Shown: positions 31,452 through 41,387 of the stretch, in pieces
How positions within the stretch are numbered: the stretch's first letter is position 1
Layout: each line of letters begins with the position of its first letter
Source of the DNA: Caldifarciminota bacterium
Lineage (GTDB): Bacteria > Hydrothermota > UBA3072
Assembly: GCA_016930175.1 (NCBI GenBank)
Contig: JAFGHJ010000046.1
Coordinates: 65,073 to 106,459 of the forward strand
Direction of reading: 5' to 3'
Length of the DNA stretch: 41,387 nt
Program-made: the position numbers and the translations under genes
The notes under the pieces: model-generated
The model's input: only the letters and a program-made list of their open reading frames with translations
What the model was told of the DNA's origin: nothing
The model's database searches: none

Positions 31452-32708
31452 TTATTCTAAATAGGGGGACCAATCGGGAGCAAAAGCTATAAGATTACGG
31501 GTGAGTTTTCTCTGTCTTGTGCCATCCCAATTCATCGTCCAGATTTCATACCTATAGGTACGGTTGGAGATAAACACTATATGTAATCCATCAGGCGACC
31601 AGGATGGCTCTTCGTTATTGCCGTAATAAGTCAGTTGGATAGGCTCAAAATCACTCGGATCGGTCACACATATTTGCTGGGAATAATCGGATTGACGTGA
31701 AACATACGCAATCATACTTCCCTTCGGCGACCAGGCCGGTGAGGTATTATAATCTCCATGAAAAGTCAGTCTGCGGAGATTACCGCCATAAATGTCCATA
31801 ATATAAATCTGTGGCATACCGCTGCGGTCGGAGACAAAAGCGATTTCCCTACCATTTGGCGAAAAAACCGGTGAACAATCAACTGCCCAGTTATGAGTGA
31901 GACGGTTTAATTTCTTTTTTTCCAGGTCTAAGAGGTAAATCTCGGAATTACCATCTTTGGACATTGTAAGGGCAATTTTCGTACCATCCGGAGAGTAATC
32001 CGGAGCAAAATTTAACCCCTGGTAAGAAAATATCGCTCTGGAATCGTTTGTTGTAAGATCGAAGAGATTGAGAAGAAGACGGTCACCACCATAGTTCGAA
32101 TACAATATTCTTTTGCCGTCAGAACCCCAACAGGGAAAAAGATTGAAATTGCCGTTTTTCGTAAGAGGTGTAAAGTTATAACCGTCATAGTCAATTAAAG
32201 CCAATTCCTTTTTCCCGTTCTTAAGGTAGGAAAAAACAATTTTTGTTGAAGTAATCCCTTTTTCTCCCGTTAGCATCTCAATAATATAATCCGAAATTTC
32301 ATGAGCTAACTCCCTTAAATTACCGGAAAGCGGAAAAATAAATTCACCGATTTTTTCTTTGGACCTGAAATCCTGCAAAACAACCGTCAAATTCGGTTCC
32401 ACAGCCGACATTTTAAGTAATACACCGCTTTTTGCGTCATCACCGGTAAAAACAGCAGTATCTGAATAAAGGGCAAAATACAACGAATAATCCAGGTCAT
32501 ATTTTATTATCTTATCGACGCTTTTTACGTGTCTTATAAATTTAGGAGTACCCTGGATATCGAGGGAATCAACTACAAGATTAATTTTACCTCCCGCGTA
32601 GTCAGTAAGCCTCAGGAAAACATCCTGACAGAAAATCATCGAAGGTACAGCAAGAAAAAATAGTACTTTTAAAAAAGTAAATTTATTGATTGGTAAAAAA
32701 CTTTTCAT
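31452..32708 (-). CDS. tolB: TolB, periplasmic beta-propeller of Tol-Pal
   Basis: 418 residues with a signal peptide (LKVLFFLAVPSMIFC, cut near QDV). An N-terminal alpha/beta domain spans about 30-150. A WD40-like propeller follows, with repeats containing CWGSDGKRILYSN, DYSPDGTKIALTM, FSPNGREIAFVSDRSG, WSPKGSMIAYVSR and WSPDGLHIVFISNR. TolB binds Pal at the outer membrane and TolA from the inner side. It is the last gene of the operon and overlaps the tolA-like gene by 4 bases. Confidence 0.93.
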   Translation of the reverse strand: MKSFLPINKFTFLKVLFFLAVPSMIFCQDVFLRLTDYAGGKINLVVDSLDIQGTPKFIRHVKSVDKIIKYDLDYSLYFALYSDTAVFTGDDAKSGVLLKMSAVEPNLTVVLQDFRSKEKIGEFIFPLSGNLRELAHEISDYIIEMLTGEKGITSTKIVFSYLKNGKKELALIDYDGYNFTPLTKNGNFNLFPCWGSDGKRILYSNYGGDRLLLNLFDLTTNDSRAIFSYQGLNFAPDYSPDGTKIALTMSKDGNSEIYLLDLEKKKLNRLTHNWAVDCSPVFSPNGREIAFVSDRSGMPQIYIMDIYGGNLRRLTFHGDYNTSPAWSPKGSMIAYVSRQSDYSQQICVTDPSDFEPIQLTYYGNNEEPSWSPDGLHIVFISNRTYRYEIWTMNWDGTRQRKLTRNLIAFAPDWSPYLE

Positions 32709-33289
32709 CGGGCAGTTAAAAATTCCAGATGCACCTTTAAATAATCATCAGAAAATTCCTGGGGCAAAGGCGGTAATTTTTTGGTTAGAGCTACAGCCCG
32801 AAGTGTTGATTCATTATAAACCTCATCGCCGGAATCGTCTTCGATACGGATATTCGTGATTAAACCGTCTTCTCCGACCTCAAAATATACGATACTTTTT
32901 AAAATCACATCTTTGTTTCTGTACGGATTGTTCCAATTTTGAGCAATTTTGTTCAAAAGAATATTCAAATAATAAGAATAATTGAATCCCCTACCACTCC
33001 CCGTATAAATTTCGGGTCTGATATCGGGTAAACCGTCGGGCAATTTTTTCCAGGAAGAGCTCTTACTCTTATTTTCTTTCTTCGGTGCCGATTTCTCTAA
33101 ATTTTTCTTCACCTTAGTTTCAGGCCTGTTGATTGCTTTTCCGGAAACTTTAGGCTGTGGAAGGGGTGCAATACTTACCTTGTAAATCTCGATTTGGGGT
33201 ATTTTTGTGAAACTATTTCTTGTGCTAATTCCAAGAGTAGAGAACAATACGGTATGAAGCAAAAATGAAAACAAATAAAAACGGTTCAT
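32705..33289 (-). CDS. TolA/TonB-type energy transducer
   Basis: 194 residues. One N-terminal membrane segment (RFYLFSFLLHTVLFSTLGI), a Lys- and Pro-rich periplasmic linker at about 40-85 (KVKKNLEKSAPKKENKSKSS), and a C-terminal TonB/TolA domain (ILLNKIAQNWNNPYRNKDV, IVYFEVGEDGLITNIRIEDD, STLRAVALTKKLPPLP). Its place between tolR and tolB makes it the TolA counterpart, though the end domain and short linker look like TonB. It would pass inner-membrane force to TolB and Pal. Confidence 0.88.
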   Translation of the reverse strand: MNRFYLFSFLLHTVLFSTLGISTRNSFTKIPQIEIYKVSIAPLPQPKVSGKAINRPETKVKKNLEKSAPKKENKSKSSSWKKLPDGLPDIRPEIYTGSGRGFNYSYYLNILLNKIAQNWNNPYRNKDVILKSIVYFEVGEDGLITNIRIEDDSGDEVYNESTLRAVALTKKLPPLPQEFSDDYLKVHLEFLTAR

Positions 33290-33693
33290 TTTCCGGATGA
33301 AAATTCTGCGACCAGCCCCAGTTCCTTTACACCTGCCTTTCTCATTTTACCTACAATTTCAACCACAAAACCATAATCTATGTTTTTGTCAGAGCGAAGA
33401 TAAACGGTTATACCCGGTGGTTTACTCGTCAAGATATCTTTTAATCTCGATTCAAACTTTTCCGAGTCGATTTTCTCGTCCTCGATGAATAAAGTTTTAT
33501 TACTTTTGATTGTTACAGTAATTCCCTCTTCGTCATGCGGTAATGAAGCATCTGTCTTAGGTAAAGATACATCTATTCCGGGTGTCATCATCGGAGCGGT
33601 AATAATAAAAACTACGAGGATCGTCAACGCGACATCCACAAGATTAGTTATGTTCAAATCTTGAATAAGCCCCCTGTCTTTATTCTTTTTCAA
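33286..33693 (-). CDS. tolR: TolR/ExbD-type proton-channel subunit
   Basis: TTG 33693 is proposed as the start: AAAAGGGG lies 5 bases before it and 14 bases overlap tolQ. A GTG at 33726 has no Shine-Dalgarno sequence and would overlap tolQ by 47 bases. The 135-residue protein has a short cytoplasmic arm, then NITNLVDVALTILVVFIITA with the membrane Asp needed for proton flow, then a periplasmic ExbD domain (VYLRSDKNIDYGFVVEIVGK). It works with TolQ. Confidence 0.88.
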   Translation of the reverse strand: MKKNKDRGLIQDLNITNLVDVALTILVVFIITAPMMTPGIDVSLPKTDASLPHDEEGITVTIKSNKTLFIEDEKIDSEKFESRLKDILTSKPPGITVYLRSDKNIDYGFVVEIVGKMRKAGVKELGLVAEFSSGK

Positions 33694-34342
33694 CCAATCC
33701 CCTTTTAAGATTTGCAAATGCCTCACTGATGAAATTGTCGAGCTGTGATTCTAAGTTGATTATTCTACTGCGTAAAAGGTTATTGAAAACTAATGACGGG
33801 ATTGCGACAAGGAGTCCATAAACAGTAGAAATAAGAGCGTCGGTAATACCGGGCGCAACAACCATTATATGGGCTGACCCCCTGGCTCTTATCTCCAGGA
33901 AAGCCTCCATAATTCCCCATACAGTTCCTAAAAGTCCCAAAAAAGGGCTTGCTGCGACAATCGTTCCCAAAACAGGTAAACCATTCTCTAAGTTCTCTAT
34001 TTCTGCTGCTTTCGACCTGTCCATTGCAAGCTTTATATTATCAGCTATTCCCAGCGCCTTGTCACCAGCATTTGCCTTTAGAAATTTAAACTCGTCGAGT
34101 CCGCTCTTTAATATCCTTCCGTAAATATTATTGCTTAACACATATCCAAGATTATACATTTTTTCGATATCGCTATGAAACCTGAAATTTTGTAAGAATT
34201 CCTGCGCCTTTCTTTTAATAGACCTCAAATCAAATATTTTTTTGAAGAAAATTGCCCAGGACCAGATGGAAAAAAACACCAGAATAACCATTATAATTTG
34301 AACTGCAATTCCGGACTCAAAAAAGATTCTAAATATATTCAT
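33680..34342 (-). CDS. tolQ: TolQ/ExbB-type proton-channel subunit
   Basis: 220 residues with three membrane segments. The family core is plain: VLGTIVAASPFLGLLGTVWG, IMEAFLEI, then PGITDALISTVYGLLVAIPS. This is the MotA/TolQ/ExbB domain. With TolR it forms the proton-driven motor of the Tol system. It overlaps the cpoB-like gene by ATGA and ends inside the start of tolR. Confidence 0.93.
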   Translation of the reverse strand: MNIFRIFFESGIAVQIIMVILVFFSIWSWAIFFKKIFDLRSIKRKAQEFLQNFRFHSDIEKMYNLGYVLSNNIYGRILKSGLDEFKFLKANAGDKALGIADNIKLAMDRSKAAEIENLENGLPVLGTIVAASPFLGLLGTVWGIMEAFLEIRARGSAHIMVVAPGITDALISTVYGLLVAIPSLVFNNLLRSRIINLESQLDNFISEAFANLKRGLVEKE

Positions 34343-35019
34343 TGACTTAACCTGTTACCTGCAAGCACTGCTTCGGGTGAATTAGGATATTCTTTTATCA
34401 CCCTGTCGAAATACATTCTTGCAATCTTTATTTCATTAGCCTCCTCATATATGATACCGGTTTTAAATATTGCGGTTGGCTTTTTATTGCTTTGGGGATA
34501 TTTATTTATCAATTCATTGAAGGTATTAACCGCATCCTGTCTTTTACCCATTGCATAGTAGCATTCTCCAATCCAGTAAAGAGCATTGTCAGAAAGTGCG
34601 GACTCCGGAGCAATTTTGATGTAAGATTTGAAACCATCGATAGATTCATTATAATTGCCTTTAACATAATTCAGATAAGCCGATTCATATATCATACGCG
34701 CTTCAGGACTAAGAGAAGAGACTTCACCGGAATCGGCATCCGGCTTTCTTCCCTTTACTAATTTTTCATTTATTTGAGTTAATTGTGTTTCGGACTCGCT
34801 CAATCGGGTATTGAGCATTTCTATCTTCTCAGCTATCTCAGCCGATTTTGTATATAAATCTACCCTGAGCTGAGCAATCTCTTTAGATTGCTTTTTGGTA
34901 TAATATTTTAGACTATCCAGCTGCCAGTAATAACTCTCAAAGTGCTTTGGTTTGAAACAACCTCCAAATATCAGAGATAAAAATACCACACCAAAAAGCA
35001 ATCTAAGTTGCTTAGTCAT
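34339..35019 (-). CDS. CpoB/YbgF-like TPR lipoprotein
   Basis: 226 residues. Signal peptide with lipobox FGGC (RLLFGVVFLSLIFGGCFK). Residues 35-90 form a coiled coil (EIAQLRVDLYTKSAEIAEKI, EMLNTRLSESETQL), as in the trimerising part of CpoB. Residues 105-226 hold three TPRs (YESAYLNYVKGNYNESIDGF, YYAMGKRQDAVNTFNELINK, ARMYFDRVIKEYPNSPEAVL). In E. coli CpoB links Tol to septal peptidoglycan synthesis. No Shine-Dalgarno sequence is seen before the ATG, 30 bases after pal. Confidence 0.88.
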   Translation of the reverse strand: MTKQLRLLFGVVFLSLIFGGCFKPKHFESYYWQLDSLKYYTKKQSKEIAQLRVDLYTKSAEIAEKIEMLNTRLSESETQLTQINEKLVKGRKPDADSGEVSSLSPEARMIYESAYLNYVKGNYNESIDGFKSYIKIAPESALSDNALYWIGECYYAMGKRQDAVNTFNELINKYPQSNKKPTAIFKTGIIYEEANEIKIARMYFDRVIKEYPNSPEAVLAGNRLSQ

Positions 35020-35049
35020 ATTTTGTTTGTTTAACTAATGGAGCTGTTT

Positions 35050-35520
35050 TTACTCTGCTACAAACTCGCAGCGACGGTTCTTTTCCAGGTTTTCCGGATC
35101 GAGAGGTCTTTCTTCCCCGTAGCTTACTGTTGATAATTGCGCGGCAGGAATACCAAGTCCTACAAGATAATCAACAGCCGCTTTTGCTCTTCTCTCACCA
35201 AGAGCCATATTATATTCAGAAGTACCTATTCTACAACAATGACCCTCAATAACCACATTTACTTCCGGATATAACTCAAGCATCTCGCTGTTCGCGTCTA
35301 AAATCGCCGCGGCATCAGGCCTAATATCGGATTTATCAAAGTCAAAGAATATCCTGTCCAATACTAGCTCGGGCCTTTCAGGCTCGACTACTTCAGTTGT
35401 ATCTTCTTCGACAACTACCGGCTCCTCTATTGGCTCTTCCTCTACTACTGGTGCGCCGCCGCAACCGATCAACAAAACAACAATCAACAGTACAGGTAAA
35501 AATAGTTTCAAATAACGCAT
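35050..35520 (-). CDS. pal: Pal, peptidoglycan-associated lipoprotein, with altered binding motif
   Basis: 156 residues. Lipobox LIGC with Cys20, then an acidic, Val-rich linker, then an OmpA-type domain from residue 53 (LDRIFFDFDKSDIRPDAAAI). The binding stretch is VVIEGHCCRIGTSEYNMALG followed by ERRAKAAVDYL. In most family members the motif is GH[TC]D; here Cys96 replaces the Asp that contacts meso-diaminopimelate, while the partner Arg (Arg111) is kept. Pal is normally last in the operon; here it is first. AGGAGG lies 5 bases before the ATG. Confidence 0.9.
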   Translation of the reverse strand: MRYLKLFLPVLLIVVLLIGCGGAPVVEEEPIEEPVVVEEDTTEVVEPERPELVLDRIFFDFDKSDIRPDAAAILDANSEMLELYPEVNVVIEGHCCRIGTSEYNMALGERRAKAAVDYLVGLGIPAAQLSTVSYGEERPLDPENLEKNRRCEFVAE

Positions 35521-35625: not shown

Positions 35626-36117
35626 TTAATCAACAAATTTTTCTTTATAAACCTCAAGCAAAAGGTCATATGCATCGTCGATAGATATAGGCACAACTTT
35701 GGTCTGACCAATTATAGGCATAAAGTTCGTGTCTCCGCTCCATCTGGGAACAAGATGATAGTGGAGATGATTTTCGAAACCGGCGCCCGCAATTCTACCG
35801 AGATTCATACCGATATTAAAACCCTCCGGCTTCATGGCTTTTTTTATAACCCTCTGCCATTCCTGAATGAGAGTAGACATCTCAAGCATCTCTTTATCGC
35901 TCAATTCTTCAAAATCCCCTGTATGATTGTAAGGTGCTATCATTATATGTCCGTTATTATATGGATATTTATTCATTATAACAAAAGTAAATTTCCCGCG
36001 AAACAGAACTCCTGATTTCCTGTCGTCATTAGACGAGGCGGCGTTACAGAAAATACAGCCCTCGGAATTTGGATTACTAATGTATTTATACCGCCAGGGA
36101 GCAAATATTCTTTTCAT
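35626..36117 (-). CDS. HIT-family nucleotide hydrolase/transferase (Ap4A phosphorylase-like)
   Basis: 163 residues. The histidine triad is NHLHYHLVPRWSGDTNFMPI near residue 116, and the N-terminal WRYKYISNPNSEGCIFCNA and IMIAPYNHTGDFEEL fit the HIT branch that includes diadenosine tetraphosphate phosphorylases. It cleaves nucleotide phosphoanhydrides or adenylated substrates; the exact one is unknown. Its ATG shares the last base of the upstream endonuclease stop, so the two are translated together. Confidence 0.9.
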   Translation of the reverse strand: MKRIFAPWRYKYISNPNSEGCIFCNAASSNDDRKSGVLFRGKFTFVIMNKYPYNNGHIMIAPYNHTGDFEELSDKEMLEMSTLIQEWQRVIKKAMKPEGFNIGMNLGRIAGAGFENHLHYHLVPRWSGDTNFMPIIGQTKVVPISIDDAYDLLLEVYKEKFVD

Positions 36118-37361
36118 CAGAAAAGAGACTGCTGTGTTACCACTTTAGCAGGATTTTCTTCCGGAATCAAAATCTGACCGTATACACCGTCGTAACCTGG
36201 TTTTATCTCCACATTTTCATTTCTGACTTTTATAACCGATCGAGCTATTTTCTCTTCAGCGCAAGAAAGCAAAATCTTTTCCGGCAAATCAAGCAATATT
36301 CTAAATTCATTACCGAAATAAGTTGTTAGTTTTATATATGACTCTTCTACAGCCCGCGTCTTACTTCCTACCCTTAAAGAATCAGCAATTATTTCTCGTA
36401 AAGGAACAAGTCTCTTATAACCCACTCTTCCTTCGCTTTTAGCTTTGTCTCTATCCGCAAGGTCATAAACACGATGCAGCACACCAAGGGTCAGGGGCCT
36501 GCCGCACTCCGGGCATATGTTATTATGTTTCTTTGAATCATAAGGGTGAAAAGTCACGTTACATTTTCTGTGTCCGTCATAATGGTACTTGCCTTCCTGT
36601 GGGAAAAACTCCACTGTATAATCGAAAATATTTGTATCCTGATTTTTTAAAATATTCAAAAGTGACGAATAATCGATTTCTTCTTTAAAACAGTTAGCTT
36701 CTCTTCCTATGTTAGCGGGTGAATGCGCATCCGAATTTGAGATCAGTGTTATATTATCAAGAGAAGATAAAAGCCAGTTCATGGGAGGATCAGAAGAAAG
36801 TCCGGTTTCTACAGCGTAAATTTTTTCTCTGTAATTTCCAAATGCTTCTTCTATAGAATCAAATCCTGACTGAGAACCAAAAAGGCCAAACCAGGGCGTC
36901 CAGAGATGAGCTGGAATCAAAATCGCATCTTCATATACAGAAAAAAGGCTTTCCGCAAGGTCACGCAAAGAAAAAGAAAGAATTGGTCTCCCATCGGCTT
37001 CTAACTTGCCGAATTTCCTGACACTTTTATTAAAACTCCTGACCATTTCAAAATTCGGCAGCATTATAAGTGAATGTATTTTCTTTGTCTGTCCTCCCTC
37101 ATTATATATATTGCATACTTCAGAAGTCAAAATGAAATCAACTTCTTCAAACCTATAAATGCCTTCCCTCTGGGTTTCTTTTAATGCTTCCTCCAGAAGA
37201 TAAAGCCAGCCAGGGTTTGTAAAATCGCCGGTACCAACAAGATTAATACCCTTTGCCTTTGCTTCTTTCGCAATAAAAGGAAGTTCCATTTGCTTACTGG
37301 TCGCCATCGAATATTTGGAGTGAATGTGAAAATCAGCGTAATATTTTTGATCACTATCCAT
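36117..37361 (-). CDS. Endonuclease Q-like PHP-domain DNA repair enzyme with C-terminal clamp motif
   Basis: 414 residues. The PHP metal site starts at YYADFHIHSKYSMATSKQM and closes with LISNSDAHSPANIGREANC. A four-cysteine zinc module (KCNVTFHP, NNICPECGRPLTLGVLHRVY) and RVGYKRLVPLREIIADSL follow, the full layout of archaeal EndoQ, which cuts 5' of deaminated bases in DNA. The last residues, VTQQSLF, fit the QxxLF beta-clamp-binding or PCNA-type motif. The start has no Shine-Dalgarno sequence but a promoter ends 7 bases upstream of the ATG, so the mRNA may be leaderless. Confidence 0.88.
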   Translation of the reverse strand: MDSDQKYYADFHIHSKYSMATSKQMELPFIAKEAKAKGINLVGTGDFTNPGWLYLLEEALKETQREGIYRFEEVDFILTSEVCNIYNEGGQTKKIHSLIMLPNFEMVRSFNKSVRKFGKLEADGRPILSFSLRDLAESLFSVYEDAILIPAHLWTPWFGLFGSQSGFDSIEEAFGNYREKIYAVETGLSSDPPMNWLLSSLDNITLISNSDAHSPANIGREANCFKEEIDYSSLLNILKNQDTNIFDYTVEFFPQEGKYHYDGHRKCNVTFHPYDSKKHNNICPECGRPLTLGVLHRVYDLADRDKAKSEGRVGYKRLVPLREIIADSLRVGSKTRAVEESYIKLTTYFGNEFRILLDLPEKILLSCAEEKIARSVIKVRNENVEIKPGYDGVYGQILIPEENPAKVVTQQSLF

Positions 37362-37580: not shown

Positions 37581-39698
37581 CTATTTTACCGTTAATCTCC
37601 GGAGCGCATCTAAAAGTCTTTCTTTTTTTACGGGCTTTGTAAGATAATCACTGCAACCAACGCCCATCGTTTTATTTCTATCTTCCTTCATGGCGTAAGC
37701 AGTCAAAGCCAAAATGGGCGTCTCGCTCCTGTGGTTTTTCTTTTCCCAGTCTCTAATAGTTTTTGTAGCTGTAAACCCGTCCATTACCGGCATCTGCATA
37801 TCCATCAAAACAATATCATATTTATTATCTTTAAATTTATCCACTGCTATCTGACCATTCTCTGCCGCATCTATTTCTACCGGAAATTTCTTTAGGAACG
37901 CCTCGATAAGTAAACGGTTGTCGGTATTATCTTCAACAAGTAATATTTTAAGATGAGGTATTGAGACTGCGGTTTTCTTTCTTTCTTCTAATTTTTCCTT
38001 TTTTATTTGAGCTTTCCATAAACCAAGTGTAGTCAGGATAGCATTCTTTAATTCTTTTCTTTTAACAGGTTTCAAGAGATATGCCCCAATTCCGTACCTA
38101 TCTATCTGTTTCAAATCGTTCGGTTTATAATCGGAAGATAAAATTATAATTGTAGTCGCATCAGAATTCTTTTGTTCTCTTAAAAACTTCGCGACTCCTA
38201 TACCGTCAACCTCGGGCATACGATAATCGAGAAGAACCAGATCAAACGGTTTATTTTTTGAATAAGCCGACTTAATTATGGAAATAGCTTCTTTGCCACC
38301 TTCAGCTTCTGTTATTTTTGCATCCCACACCGAGAGAATTTCCCTTAAAATCAATCTGTTCGTTGCATTATCATCCACAATTAAAGTCGACATACCTTCG
38401 ACATCTATTTCTCCGGGTTTAACAAAGGTCTCCCTACCCTTTTTTTCCTGGAGTCCAAACGGTGCAGTGAAACAAAATTTACTCCCTCTTCCTAATTCAC
38501 TTTCGACCCACATCTTACCACCCATCAATAACGTAATTCTTTTAGAAATACTTAAACCCAAACCCGTCCCCCCATATTTTCTGGTGGTTGAAGAATCGGC
38601 TTGCTTAAAGGTTTCAAAAACTTTATCTTGCTTATCCTTCGGTATCCCGATACCTGTATCTTTTACAAAGAAAAGCAAGTACACGCTATTCTCTTCTTTC
38701 GGTTCAATGTACTCAGGATCCTCCTCATGTAAAAGATTGACATTGAGAACAATTTCGCCTTCATCGGTAAATTTTATCGCATTTCCAATAAGGTTAACGA
38801 GTACCTGTCTGAGTCTTGAGGGATCTCCGATTAGATTCACCGGAACATTAGGTTCTATTCTGCTCAAAAATTCTATATTCTTTTTGCGAGCGCGAACCGC
38901 CATAACATCACAGGTCCCTTCAATTAATTCTCCGAGATCAAAATTCGTTTTCTCAAACTCCACGTCACCCGCTTCTATTTTCGAGAGATCCAGTATATCA
39001 TTTATCAAAGAAAGCAAAGTATCTCCAGCTTTCTCTAAAGTTTTCACAAAACCTTTCTGTTCTTTGGAGAGAGGCGTATCGGAAAGAAGTTCCGCCATAC
39101 CAACAATTGCATTCATAGGTGTTCGTATCTCATGACTCATTGTAGCCAGAAATTCGCTCTTAGCCTCATTTGCTCTTTCGGCTTCAACTTTTGCTTTTTG
39201 CAGTTCATCTTCAGTTTTTTTATGAGCCTTAATTTCTTCTTTAAGTTTTACATATGATTTCTTGAGTTCTTCATAAAGCTCATCCCGCGTAAGTCTCGAT
39301 ATTTTTTCTTGTTCATAATTAATGAAATATTCGGTTGGTTTAAAATCGTAATCTGCGATGAATTTAAACGCATCCAGAGCGTTTAAACCATTTCCAAGGT
39401 TATAATAATCGATTTCGTCAAATATTCCGTCCAGAATTTTAGAGTTTTCAGAAATATCATTACCAGAAAAGAAACGAATCAACAAACCAAATCTTTCTTT
39501 TCTCTGATCTATAAAAAATTCCAAACCACATTTTTCTTCTATCCCAGCTACCTTTCGTATTACTTCGGAAGCAGCAGTCGTTAATCTCGTAGCAGTGACT
39601 TCACCAAATCCAAGATCGGTTGCCAACTCGAGCACCTTGTTTCTTTTCTCTACAAGGTAAGTTTTATCCTTTAAAGAAACTTTACCGAGTTGAACCAT
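37581..39698 (-). CDS. Hybrid histidine kinase with RsbT-like degenerate N-terminal domain and two receiver domains
   Basis: 705 residues. Residues 1-120 align by eye with the stressosome kinase RsbT (LGFGEVTATRLTTAASEVIR against its LGFG...RITTAISELAR), but the N-box Asn is Lys49 and the glycine boxes are absent. A coiled coil (130-180) leads to the HisKA domain with His189 in TMSHEIRTPMNAIVG. The HATPase has NAIKF, DTGIGI and GTGLGL. Two REC domains follow, with Asp491 (LVLLDYRMPEVDG) and Asp633 (IVLMDMQMPVMDG). The kinase core looks active; no transmembrane segment or DNA-binding output is present. The ATG shares one base with the upstream STAS stop. It is the last gene of the operon. Confidence 0.9.
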   Translation of the reverse strand: MVQLGKVSLKDKTYLVEKRNKVLELATDLGFGEVTATRLTTAASEVIRKVAGIEEKCGLEFFIDQRKERFGLLIRFFSGNDISENSKILDGIFDEIDYYNLGNGLNALDAFKFIADYDFKPTEYFINYEQEKISRLTRDELYEELKKSYVKLKEEIKAHKKTEDELQKAKVEAERANEAKSEFLATMSHEIRTPMNAIVGMAELLSDTPLSKEQKGFVKTLEKAGDTLLSLINDILDLSKIEAGDVEFEKTNFDLGELIEGTCDVMAVRARKKNIEFLSRIEPNVPVNLIGDPSRLRQVLVNLIGNAIKFTDEGEIVLNVNLLHEEDPEYIEPKEENSVYLLFFVKDTGIGIPKDKQDKVFETFKQADSSTTRKYGGTGLGLSISKRITLLMGGKMWVESELGRGSKFCFTAPFGLQEKKGRETFVKPGEIDVEGMSTLIVDDNATNRLILREILSVWDAKITEAEGGKEAISIIKSAYSKNKPFDLVLLDYRMPEVDGIGVAKFLREQKNSDATTIIILSSDYKPNDLKQIDRYGIGAYLLKPVKRKELKNAILTTLGLWKAQIKKEKLEERKKTAVSIPHLKILLVEDNTDNRLLIEAFLKKFPVEIDAAENGQIAVDKFKDNKYDIVLMDMQMPVMDGFTATKTIRDWEKKNHRSETPILALTAYAMKEDRNKTMGVGCSDYLTKPVKKERLLDALRRLTVK

Positions 39699-40225
39699 TA
39701 ATCAATATCCTTCTCATCTTGTTCCGCAAGAAAGTCTTCTTCATCTTCAACATTCCCATCTTCACCATCTCCGGTTTCTTCCCCGGTATCAACTTCTTCT
39801 ATAACCTCATTTTTTTCAACTTCTTCTTCCGCTTCTTCCGATTTTTCCTCGACTCTAACTAAAGGCTGAAGTTTTTTAACTCCCTCTTCAAAAGTTCCTG
39901 CAGTTTCATATATCTCTTTAAAATCGAAATTGGAATCCGTAAGAGCAATAGCAACTCCGGGTTTTATACCCGTTAACACAGTTTTAGCTCCCAACAAAGA
40001 AATCATTTTTGCTGTTTTATCGATAATACCGGCATGGTAAGGCTCAATTATTCGAACCCCGGAAAGATCAATTACTACTCCCTTTACTTTACTGTCTTCG
40101 ACTCCTTTTAAAATTTGACATTGTATTTTACTCATTCTTTCATCATCAATCTCTCCCTGAATCGGAACCACAAGACATCCCTCTGAAATATGAATAGACA
40201 AATCAGATAAACTTTTCTCCTCCAT
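39698..40225 (-). CDS. RsbS-like STAS protein with acidic tail, phosphosite replaced by Pro
   Basis: ATG 40225 is preferred over GTG 40237 because GAAGGTG lies about 9 bases upstream; 175 residues. Residues 8-118 match the RsbS type: ISEGCLVVPIQGEIDDERMS, VVIDLSGVRIIEPYHAGIID, then LLGAKTVLTGIKPGVAIALT. The Ser phosphorylated in Bacillus RsbS (IDS) corresponds here to Pro62 (IEP), so phosphorylation at this site is not possible. Residues 125-175 are almost entirely Glu, Asp and Gly. It lies directly before the RsbT-like kinase gene, the same order as rsbS-rsbT. Confidence 0.88.
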   Translation of the reverse strand: MEEKSLSDLSIHISEGCLVVPIQGEIDDERMSKIQCQILKGVEDSKVKGVVIDLSGVRIIEPYHAGIIDKTAKMISLLGAKTVLTGIKPGVAIALTDSNFDFKEIYETAGTFEEGVKKLQPLVRVEEKSEEAEEEVEKNEVIEEVDTGEETGDGEDGNVEDEEDFLAEQDEKDID

Positions 40226-40263
40226 AATTGCCGGCACCTTCTAATGACTTAACTTTTTCTTAT

Positions 40264-41034
40264 TCAATCTTTAATATTACGCATCATAACCAGATACGCT
40301 CCGTCACCCTCCCACTCGGTTTCGGTAACTCTCATCTCTGCCCGTTTTTTCTCTTTTCCTTTACTCCGTACTTCGATTTCTTTTAGTTGTCCAACCTCTA
40401 AAGGAAATTCGAATTTCTCACCTATAAGATCCTCAGGGACGGCTTCCAGGAAATTTTGTGAAGAGCTATTTGCAAACTGTACTATACCCTTCCTGTCTAC
40501 AACTACCACAGCAAAATGAATTCTCTCTATTATGTTTTTAAACCTTGATTTACTCCTTTCAAGTTCCCGAATTTTCTCTTCCAACTTCATTAAGATTTGA
40601 TGCCGCTCAACCGCAAAGAATATCGCCTGCAAAAGCGCATTGACACCCATCTGCCCCTTAACAAGGAACCCCTCTGCCCCTCTTTTCATTGCTTCAAGAG
40701 CCAAACCTTCATCACTTAATGCAGTTATCACGACAACCGGGACATTATGAGCATTCTTCCTTATACTATCCAGAGTAGCTAATTCTTTACTATCCGGCAG
40801 ATTAAGGTCAAGCAATATAAGATCAAATTCATGTTCAGAAATACATTTAAGAGCCTCTCCCAGAGTTTCTACATTAGTTAACGCAAATTTAGTATCTTTG
40901 ACTAATTCGGCTTCCTCACAATAAGCAAGAGTTTCCCTAATAAAAGTAACTGCAAACGATGCGTCTTCAATAAGAAGAACATTCATTATCGTGATATCAG
41001 CATTCTTTTCACTGTGTTTCCCTTTTTCATTCAT
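40264..41034 (-). CDS. Response regulator with REC and PAS domains
   Basis: ATG 41034 has GAGAGG 7 bases upstream; a further ATG at 40986 opens directly on the REC core and is the main alternative. 256 residues. REC at about 17-140 with acidic pair IED, phosphoacceptor Asp76 (LILLDLNLPDSKE), Thr104 region VVITALSDEG and Lys126. A short coiled coil (145-165) joins a PAS domain (165-256, FAVVVVDRKGIVQFANSSSQ). There is no DNA-binding or enzymatic output, so it probably signals by protein contact, perhaps with the hybrid kinase or STAS proteins. Confidence 0.88.
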   Translation of the reverse strand: MNEKGKHSEKNADITIMNVLLIEDASFAVTFIRETLAYCEEAELVKDTKFALTNVETLGEALKCISEHEFDLILLDLNLPDSKELATLDSIRKNAHNVPVVVITALSDEGLALEAMKRGAEGFLVKGQMGVNALLQAIFFAVERHQILMKLEEKIRELERSKSRFKNIIERIHFAVVVVDRKGIVQFANSSSQNFLEAVPEDLIGEKFEFPLEVGQLKEIEVRSKGKEKKRAEMRVTETEWEGDGAYLVMMRNIKD

Positions 41035-41131
41035 TTGAATACCTCTCAGATATACTTTTAAATATACGAACATTATTTATGAGACGATTGCCTTTGTTTA
41101 AGGTCGAATAAACGCTAAAGTTATTACTCAC
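41027..41131 (-). CDS. Candidate 34-residue upstream open reading frame
   Basis: GTG 41131 has AAGGAGG 5 bases upstream, the best Shine-Dalgarno match in this operon. The frame reads VSNNFSVYSTLNKGNRLINN and ends in FKSISERYSNE with a TGA that lies 8 bases inside the REC-PAS gene. Such an overlap suits translational coupling, so the product or the act of translation may set the level of the response regulator. No homology was recognised, and the frame could be chance. Confidence 0.35.
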   Translation of the reverse strand: MSNNFSVYSTLNKGNRLINNVRIFKSISERYSNE

Positions 41132-41154
41132 AAAAGCCTCCTTTATACCGAAAC

Positions 41155-41200
41155 TTTATCAGATTCCGAATTCGAAAAAAATCTCATTTCTCCTGATAAA
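41155..41200 (-). other. Inverted repeat in the spacer of the signalling operon
   Basis: TTTATCAG (41155-41162) and CTGATAAA (41193-41200), 8 bp, with smaller inner pairing around TTCGAATTC. On the minus strand a second start-like set (CAGGAG, ATG) opens a 14-codon frame inside it that ends just before AAGGAGG at 41143. It may be a leader RNA structure between the RsbR-like and REC-PAS genes. Confidence 0.3.
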
Positions 41201-41254
41201 TATTTCTTAAAAAATAATAATCTGTATTATACCTTAAATAAAACTTCTCTATAC

Positions 41255-41387
41255 TCAAATATTTTTTCTTGAAATAACGTACCTCAATCCGTCTTTCAAG
41301 GTTGACATCGTCTTAAGCCCCTCCATGTCGATTCCGAGATCGGCAATTGTCTGGGCTATCTCCACTCCGACTCCGGTTAATATAGCC
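41255..41387 (-). CDS. RsbR-type STAS protein, 5' part outside window
   Basis: The last 43 residues are visible and end at TGA 41257-41255. ILTGVGVEIAQTIADLGIDM followed by EGLKTMSTLKDGLRYVISR matches the end of the STAS domain of RsbR paralogues (LTGIxPEVAQTL, LGIDL, TLxxGL). RsbR proteins form the stressosome shell with RsbS and carry a sensory N-terminal domain, which is not in the window. It reads in the same direction as, and 110 bases before, the small frame and REC-PAS gene. Confidence 0.85.
   Translation of the reverse strand, partial: AILTGVGVEIAQTIADLGIDMEGLKTMSTLKDGLRYVISRKNI

Follow-up and report, generated by a model that had tools for sequence, protein, structure and literature searches.

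A hybrid histidine kinase with an RsbT-fold front domain lacking ATP-site residues: a candidate adaptor between stressosomes and their outputs

In a stretch of 41,387 nucleotides from a Caldifarciminota bacterium (assembly GCA_016930175.1; hereafter the window, positions 65073-106459 of contig JAFGHJ010000046.1, or C10), a stressosome-linked hybrid histidine kinase of 705 amino acids (aa; 37581..39698, minus strand) begins with what profile comparison and structure prediction identify as an RsbW/SpoIIAB/RsbT-fold domain that has lost its ATP-binding residues. The reading we favour from sequences and models, if by no great measure, is that this RsbT-like domain serves as a docking adaptor, which would bind the STAS surface of the stressosome (here including a STAS protein without the phosphorylatable Ser, termed pseudo-RsbS or pS) and pass the state of that surface to the kinase. 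Stressosome-linked hybrid kinases are already known. An RsbT-type front domain on them seems to be new, no description having been found in the open-access literature, with the older output reviews (Pane-Farre 2005, 2017) outside the scope of that search.

The identity of the kinase N-terminus is drawn from profile, fold and context evidence only, because Pfam and NCBIfam models miss the domain. Residues 1-133 gave no meaningful match to either collection and no RsbU_N at E<=10 in Pfam, and a phmmer search of the domain against the PDB returned zero matches; of the profiles suggested in the initial annotation, STAS matched the neighbouring pS (Pfam 4e-14). A BTB_2 identity for residues 1-133 was dropped (E 0.003, below its cut-off and at odds with the fold). 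When 150 relatives were searched with residues 1-150, the orthologue in G001, the sole other genome of the genus found, matched at E 1e-29 and the remainder were mainly RsbT-type genes, the best of which (E 8.5e-7) lies in an rsbR-S-S-T operon. In a profile-profile comparison by hhalign, four such N-termini matched RsbT-type proteins with a probability of 95.6 and E 1e-8. AlphaFold2 predicts the domain with the order beta-alpha-alpha-beta-beta-alpha-beta-beta (predicted local distance difference test (pLDDT) 77, predicted template modelling score (pTM) 0.71). The top 11 Foldseek matches to the model are all RsbW, SpoIIAB or UsfX, as are in kind the top 10 of VIA-align (Z 14.0-12.2), followed by SiaB (10.0), LvrC (9.3) and sensor-kinase domains (<=7.4). 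The initial annotation had named an unrelated fold as the outcome that would count against it; the predicted fold is RsbW/SpoIIAB-like, at Z 12-14.

The domain (residues 1-120, 39339..39698, identified by hhalign, Foldseek, VIA-align and a motif table) is followed on the minus strand by a linker (residues 121-178, 39165..39338; AlphaFold2 of residues 1-250 and motif comparison), HisKA (residues 179-244, 38967..39164; Pfam 1.5e-23), the HATPase_c catalytic domain (residues 291-414, 38457..38828; Pfam 5e-28) and two receiver domains (approximately residues 436-560 and 585-700, 37599..38393; Pfam Response_reg in 2 stretches, 6e-49). The kinase's own motifs are intact (SHEIRTP188 with the phosphoacceptor His, NLIGNA302, DTGIG347 and GTGLGL377), and the receiver Asp residues are kept (DYRMP491 and MDMQMP632). 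An unbroken helix from 138 to 205, running into HisKA, is predicted at low confidence (AlphaFold2 of residues 1-250, pLDDT 68, two sequences), and a T-R-D/E-E-L motif in the linker is common to the window kinase and an Aeromonas kinase. Alignment of the front domain to RsbT places Lys49 at the N-box Asn, as initially annotated, and the G1 box is absent. The accompanying claim that no glycine boxes remain is right for G1 and too strong for G2, of which LGNGL (101-105) is a remnant in the window domain, itself lost in the sister species. Arg19 and Ser44 are retained. Since the ATP site is lost, phosphorylation of RsbS or RsbR by this domain is unlikely.

The operon to which the kinase very probably belongs would be divided between two contigs. 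From the right edge of the window, where C10 terminates, the minus strand encodes the C-terminus of an RsbR-type STAS protein (41255..41386; C-terminal 43 codons of the operon's third rsbR, translation AILTGVGVEIAQTIADLGIDMEGLKTMSTLKDGLRYVISRKNI and stop), a 269-aa REC-PAS protein (40264..41073; Pfam Response_reg 1e-16 and PAS 5e-5, phosphoacceptor motif LLDLNLP), pS and the kinase, so that the gene order initially read from the letters is borne out by the open reading frames and Pfam. Since the contig stops there, the RsbR gene is incomplete in the assembly. The truncated product is near-identical to RsbR1 and RsbR2 of a second contig of the same genome, C13 (L002), which carries rsbR1, rsbR2, rsbS, rsbT and rsbX (rsbR-S-T-X operon, L002 5051-8924) and then the N-terminal part of a third rsbR running off its end (L002 9036-9590). 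On C13 the RsbS phosphosite is intact (VDS, that is, D-S), as are the ATP-site motifs of RsbT (SELTRN, DEGPGI and LGIGL). Both contigs terminate inside rsbR, with about 170 bp of repeated STAS code missing between them. They very probably adjoin as one operon, because G001 has the whole order on a single contig (L095; rsbR-rsbS(Ser)-rsbT(intact)-rsbX-rsbR-REC/PAS-STAS(Glu-Pro)-kinase-REC/HisKA), its REC-PAS orthologue at the equivalent place, and because the same three genes precede both operons (PBP1, OmpA-like and D-3-phosphoglycerate-dehydrogenase-like). By this synteny, the four genes of the window are very probably the output genes that form the distal half of a complete operon, rsbR-rsbR-rsbS-rsbT-rsbX-rsbR followed by REC/PAS-pS-pseudoRsbT-kinase.

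This arrangement overturns the initial view that both halves of the RsbT-RsbS phosphoswitch are lost. The switch is retained, because intact rsbS, rsbT and rsbX are encoded upstream, on C13 here and in the same operon in G001. Judged from their sequences, the Pro-bearing STAS and the ATP-less kinase N-terminus are instead an extra, second, degenerate S/T-like pair that would form the output arm. The gene after the kinase in G001 encodes a REC protein that includes a HisKA-like helix (L095 2336-3055); the window has no such gene there.

The pS gene (39698..40237, minus strand) is placed as RsbS-like by Pfam, by tree and by phosphosite alignment, the last of which shows Glu-Pro for Asp-Ser and so agrees with the Pro62 of the initial annotation (Pro62 counted from an internal Met, Pro66 from the GTG). 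The G001 orthologue is also Glu-Pro, so the pairing of an RsbT-type fold lacking its ATP site with a Ser-less STAS, as first described, is kept in the second species of the genus, where the Ser-less STAS is likewise additional to a normal RsbS. The pS protein ends in a strongly acidic tail of about 50 residues (window 39698-39850; EEKSEEAEEEVEKNEV...DEEDFLAEQDEKDID), which is shorter in the G001 orthologue. The G001 open reading frame (L095 5125-5517) is called from a later start than that of the window and is without the first STAS strand, reflecting a start-site difference, a frameshift or a sequence error. The pS stop and the kinase start overlap by 1 nucleotide. This close juncture, together with the degeneracy of both partners and their presence in addition to an intact S/T pair, could mean that pS and the kinase work only with each other and apart from the stressosome, as a duplicated S/T pair that became a separate sensor with REC-PAS as input. 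We think this quite improbable: Nitrospira and most other genomes have the fused domain right after rsbX without a second RsbS-type STAS, so that a private pS is not needed generally.

Scans of genome contigs and surveys with the domain profiles A1, A3 and A5 located this domain in proteins encoded downstream in Aeromonas dhakensis (L067), Vibrio maerlii and Nitrospira moscoviensis; a whole-kinase scan of genome contigs returned mostly unrelated hybrid kinases via HisKA and REC, plus Aeromonas L067 and Methyloceanibacter L075. Fused domains were found in 4/198 Nitrospirota genomes (N. moscoviensis among them), about 16/299 Pseudomonadota genomes, 2/274 Gammaproteobacteria genomes (V. maerlii among them) and up to 13/148 Vibrio genomes, at least 7 of which were examined in detail; in the window's own phylum they occur only in the two genomes of this genus. 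The survey for RsbT-like N-termini on HisKA kinases called for in the initial annotation, with the Ser state of RsbS scored, thus returned Nitrospira, Vibrio, Aeromonas and other Pseudomonadota, and the fusion does not set the locus apart from Vibrio-type modules as had been supposed: the downstream kinases of Vibrio and Aeromonas share a degenerate RsbT-like N-terminus. Among 25 loci found with the domain sequence alone, some of which run into a contig end, 24 have the fused gene directly 3' of an RsbX-type gene in R-S-T-X order. The sole exception in context is an RsbT-HisKA fusion (L184 3558-5018, G911) whose ATP site is intact and which lies beside an RsbR-type STAS, with no rsbT or rsbX in the 7.5 kb examined around it. 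The attached effectors comprise hybrid HisKA kinases, a HisKA_2/HWE kinase, plain GGDEF proteins and PAS-GGDEF-EAL proteins. Because the output types vary, the shared part is the adaptor and not the enzyme, and front domain and operon place are common to outputs of four effector kinds in at least three phyla.

The window domain shares fold and sequence kinship with the switch kinases RsbT, RsbW and SpoIIAB, and its gene, like theirs, follows a STAS gene. It differs from them in having neither N-box Asn nor G1 and in being one part of a multidomain kinase; an ATP site is retained by 9 other fused homologues. In stand-alone RsbT the Asn, DxGxG and GxGL are intact in 24/24 cases. Among 26 fused domains the site is intact in nine (G452, G549, G676, G680, G731, G734, G762, G770 and G911a) and lost in 17, the window's included. 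The N-box Asn is present in 9/9 intact and 0/17 degenerate domains; in the degenerate set it and the G1 residues stand at 0-18% and the two G2 glycines at 12% and 41%. Ser44 is kept in all 17 degenerate domains, and the Arg corresponding to window Arg19 in all 26. The closest view of this drift comes from one small Vibrio group of three genomes (L210-L212), in which the N-box position is Lys, Asn and Lys, none retains the G boxes, and RsbS is D-S.

A tree of the domains places N. moscoviensis and G623 as decayed members within an intact Nitrospira group (100/100), and a separate group of 14 degenerate domains (100/99) includes the window's. Their long branches make the common descent of degenerate fused domains uncertain, and a single origin of all fused domains is neither shown nor excluded by the tree. 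ATP-site decay, as traced in these sequences, has occurred more than once, with a product conserved between species. The Nitrospira kinases (N. moscoviensis L106, G549 L127 and G623 L128) share the fusion, its place after rsbR-S-T-(T)X, the HisKA-REC-REC order and a length class of about 720 aa with the window kinase. They differ in lacking a second RsbS-type STAS and in the state of the ATP site, which is intact in G452 and G549 and lost in N. moscoviensis and G623.

The same comparisons bear on the possibility that the front domain is a relic in decay, or does no more than help dimerization, and has neither partner nor signalling role. No other part of the kinase differs as much between the two species (47% identity, where the catalytic and receiver domains have 68-91%), and an intact form exists in relatives. 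Even at 47% identity, however, the orthologue retains the domain with reading frame and fold kept; frame, fold and one invariant Arg persist across phyla and different output enzymes, and the decay hits the ATP site specifically. We regard the relic as the least probable of the readings weighed here. The narrower worry of the initial annotation, that homologues are intact and this copy merely decayed, is correct in that nine of 26 fused domains have an intact site. It fails in that the sister species shares the decayed state and other lineages, such as the Nitrospira pair, decayed separately; a single decayed copy is ruled out.

The invariant Arg column aligns with Arg20 of SpoIIAB, a residue that we take to contact sigma-F and SpoIIAA (the sigma-factor and STAS partners) and not to belong to the dimer interface. 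Decay of the ATP site alongside a retained, partner-facing Arg fits a dead enzyme with a live interface, and to that extent fits the conserved, non-phosphorylating binding switch first proposed for this locus. The position of the Arg also speaks against the main rival explanation, in which the pseudo-RsbT domain is a receptor for free RsbT: released RsbT would pair with it, as SpoIIAB and RsbW self-pair, and switch the kinase as with RsbU_N. This receptor model draws on the finding that binding of RsbT to an N-terminal domain orders a coiled-coil linker and so activates the output (PMC12143880), on the nearly constant encoding of RsbT and the fused domain together, and on the helix bearing Ser39 in Vibrio brasiliensis RsbT, predicted for dimerization (Jia et al., 2016; PMC4976288). 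No interaction of V. vulnificus RsbT with the kinase D1 was detected (Heinz et al., 2022; PMC9237108), and we judge the receptor model unlikely, if deserving of attention.

The RSTX-D1 modules of V. vulnificus (Heinz et al., 2022; PMC9237108) and V. brasiliensis (PMC4976288) share with the present operon rsbR-rsbS-rsbT-rsbX, a hybrid HisKA-HATPase-REC-REC kinase and a REC protein. The order of RSTX and then hybrid kinase is found in G001, with equal architecture in V. maerlii and other Vibrio. In the comparison made here, which used close Vibrio operons and not V. vulnificus D1 itself, the D1 kinases carry a degenerate RsbT-like N-terminus and several operons have an RsbS without D-S. The available text of the two reports makes no mention of an RsbT-like N-terminus. 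Unlike the Vibrio modules, the present operon has a second, Pro-bearing STAS besides intact RsbS, a REC-PAS protein ahead of the kinase, RsbRs of PAS-STAS type (on C13) in place of globin sensors, and an rsbX with its own RsbT-like domain. A fourth, orphan PAS-STAS RsbR paralogue lies elsewhere in the genome (L003 6206-7039, C12). The RsbT-like domain of RsbX stands ahead of PP2C in both species (L002 7935-8924 on C13; L095 7328-8317 in G001) and has N-box Asn and G2 intact and the G1 box (D.GxG) gone; T-PP2C fusions with intact G1 were found in Nitrospira and many Pseudomonadota. Because RsbX also carries such a domain, there are up to three RsbT-type domains per operon.

The state of the RsbS phosphosite varies with that of the fused domain. 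The site is D-S or D-T in all seven operons with an intact fused domain and lost in 9/14 operons with a degenerate one (DH, DM, DI, DH, DY, DY, DC, DR and DQ; kept in 5/14), giving Fisher p = 0.007 over 21 operons. Further Vibrio operons have RsbS D-R or S-R where the kinase is PAS-bearing and about 1050 aa, like V. vulnificus D1, and D-S in three others; the RsbS of PDB 7o0i (115 aa, the length of V. vulnificus RsbS), taken to be the V. vulnificus protein, reads LDGESM at the phosphosite. That Ser loss tracks adaptor decay is suggestive and not established, because the RsbT tree shows only some three changes in each trait and at most three independent pairs. Nor does a missing Ser prove an unphosphorylated subunit or the non-phosphorylating switch that the initial annotation had suggested: V. 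brasiliensis RsbS, in which the Bacillus subtilis phosphosites are not conserved, is nevertheless thiophosphorylated (Jia et al., 2016; PMC4976288).

The closest functional precedent for the docking adaptor is found among RsbU_N outputs (Bacillus RsbU, Moorella MtG and RsbU_N-NreB kinases), which combine an N-terminal adaptor with a helical linker to interchangeable effectors, namely PP2C, GGDEF and kinase domains (PMC12143880). A 2025 eLife study of RsbU indicates that the partner at the N-terminal adaptor acts via the helical linker, of a kind common to phosphatases, kinases and GGDEF enzymes (PMC12143880). The RsbT-like domain sits at the same adaptor position as in the RsbU model, ahead of a predicted helical linker; it differs in having the RsbT-type alpha/beta fold and not the RsbU_N helical bundle.

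From operon place, fold, pattern of decay and variety of effectors, we infer each binding and switching step of the following mechanism. The RsbT-like domain would occupy the STAS surface used by RsbT, either on RsbS and RsbR or on the Ser-less pS, and this docking would hold kinase dimers on the stressosome. Upon a stimulus, the real RsbT would phosphorylate RsbR and RsbS and leave, and the docked kinase would be released or re-oriented. The change might pass through the continuous helix (approximately 138-205) to the His-containing helices and alter phosphotransfer to the kinase's own receivers and to the REC-PAS protein. As a binding module, the domain would need no ATP; pS would need no Ser, its bond not being meant for cutting by phosphorylation. 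Docking would thereby replace the RsbU_N route of Bacillus.

Several observations weigh against the docking adaptor. Tests of interaction between V. vulnificus RsbT and D1 were negative, and no test of D1 with the assembled stressosome is described in the available text (PMC9237108). A decayed adaptor coexists with an intact RsbS Ser in N. moscoviensis, G623, G911, G347 and three Vibrio, so that Ser loss is not required, and one kinase directly after an R-S-T-TX module is without the RsbT-like domain (L194 1646-2524, G903). The AlphaFold2 alignment of the domain is shallow (3 rows), the 14 grouped degenerate domains are long-branched and their grouping could in part be an artefact, and the join of C13 and C10 relies on G001 synteny without overlapping sequence across the gap of about 170 bp.

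Beyond the operon, the next gene past the kinase in the window encodes a PHP-type protein (36117-37361), and a Tol-Pal-like cluster lies to the left of the kinase on the minus strand (31452-35520; TolQ/ExbB, ExbD, TonB/TolA-like, TolB-like, YbgF-like and Pal).

The link from stressosome to output outside Bacillus has been stated to be unsolved: RsbU_N, the receptor for RsbT, is absent from most of the Gram-negative outputs considered, which are downstream kinases and GGDEF proteins, and how these connect to the stressosome was left open (Heinz et al., 2022; PMC9237108). The shared RsbT-like N-terminus, present in at least three phyla and on four effector kinds, is a concrete and testable candidate for this missing link, with a reach more general than was first claimed from the window. 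The fused domains also form, at one and the same operon position, a natural gradation between active switch-kinase domains and dead ones. It is plausible, although we would stop just short of calling it probable, that the RsbT-fold pseudo-switch-kinase domain is a general adaptor, placing histidine kinases and cyclic di-GMP (c-di-GMP) enzymes under stressosome control in Gram-negative and other phyla. Its starting point would have been a third RsbT copy, still active, joined to an output; the ATP site would then have been lost repeatedly, with a Ser-less RsbS-type STAS as partner in several lineages, and the resulting switch may dock its partner without phosphorylating it.

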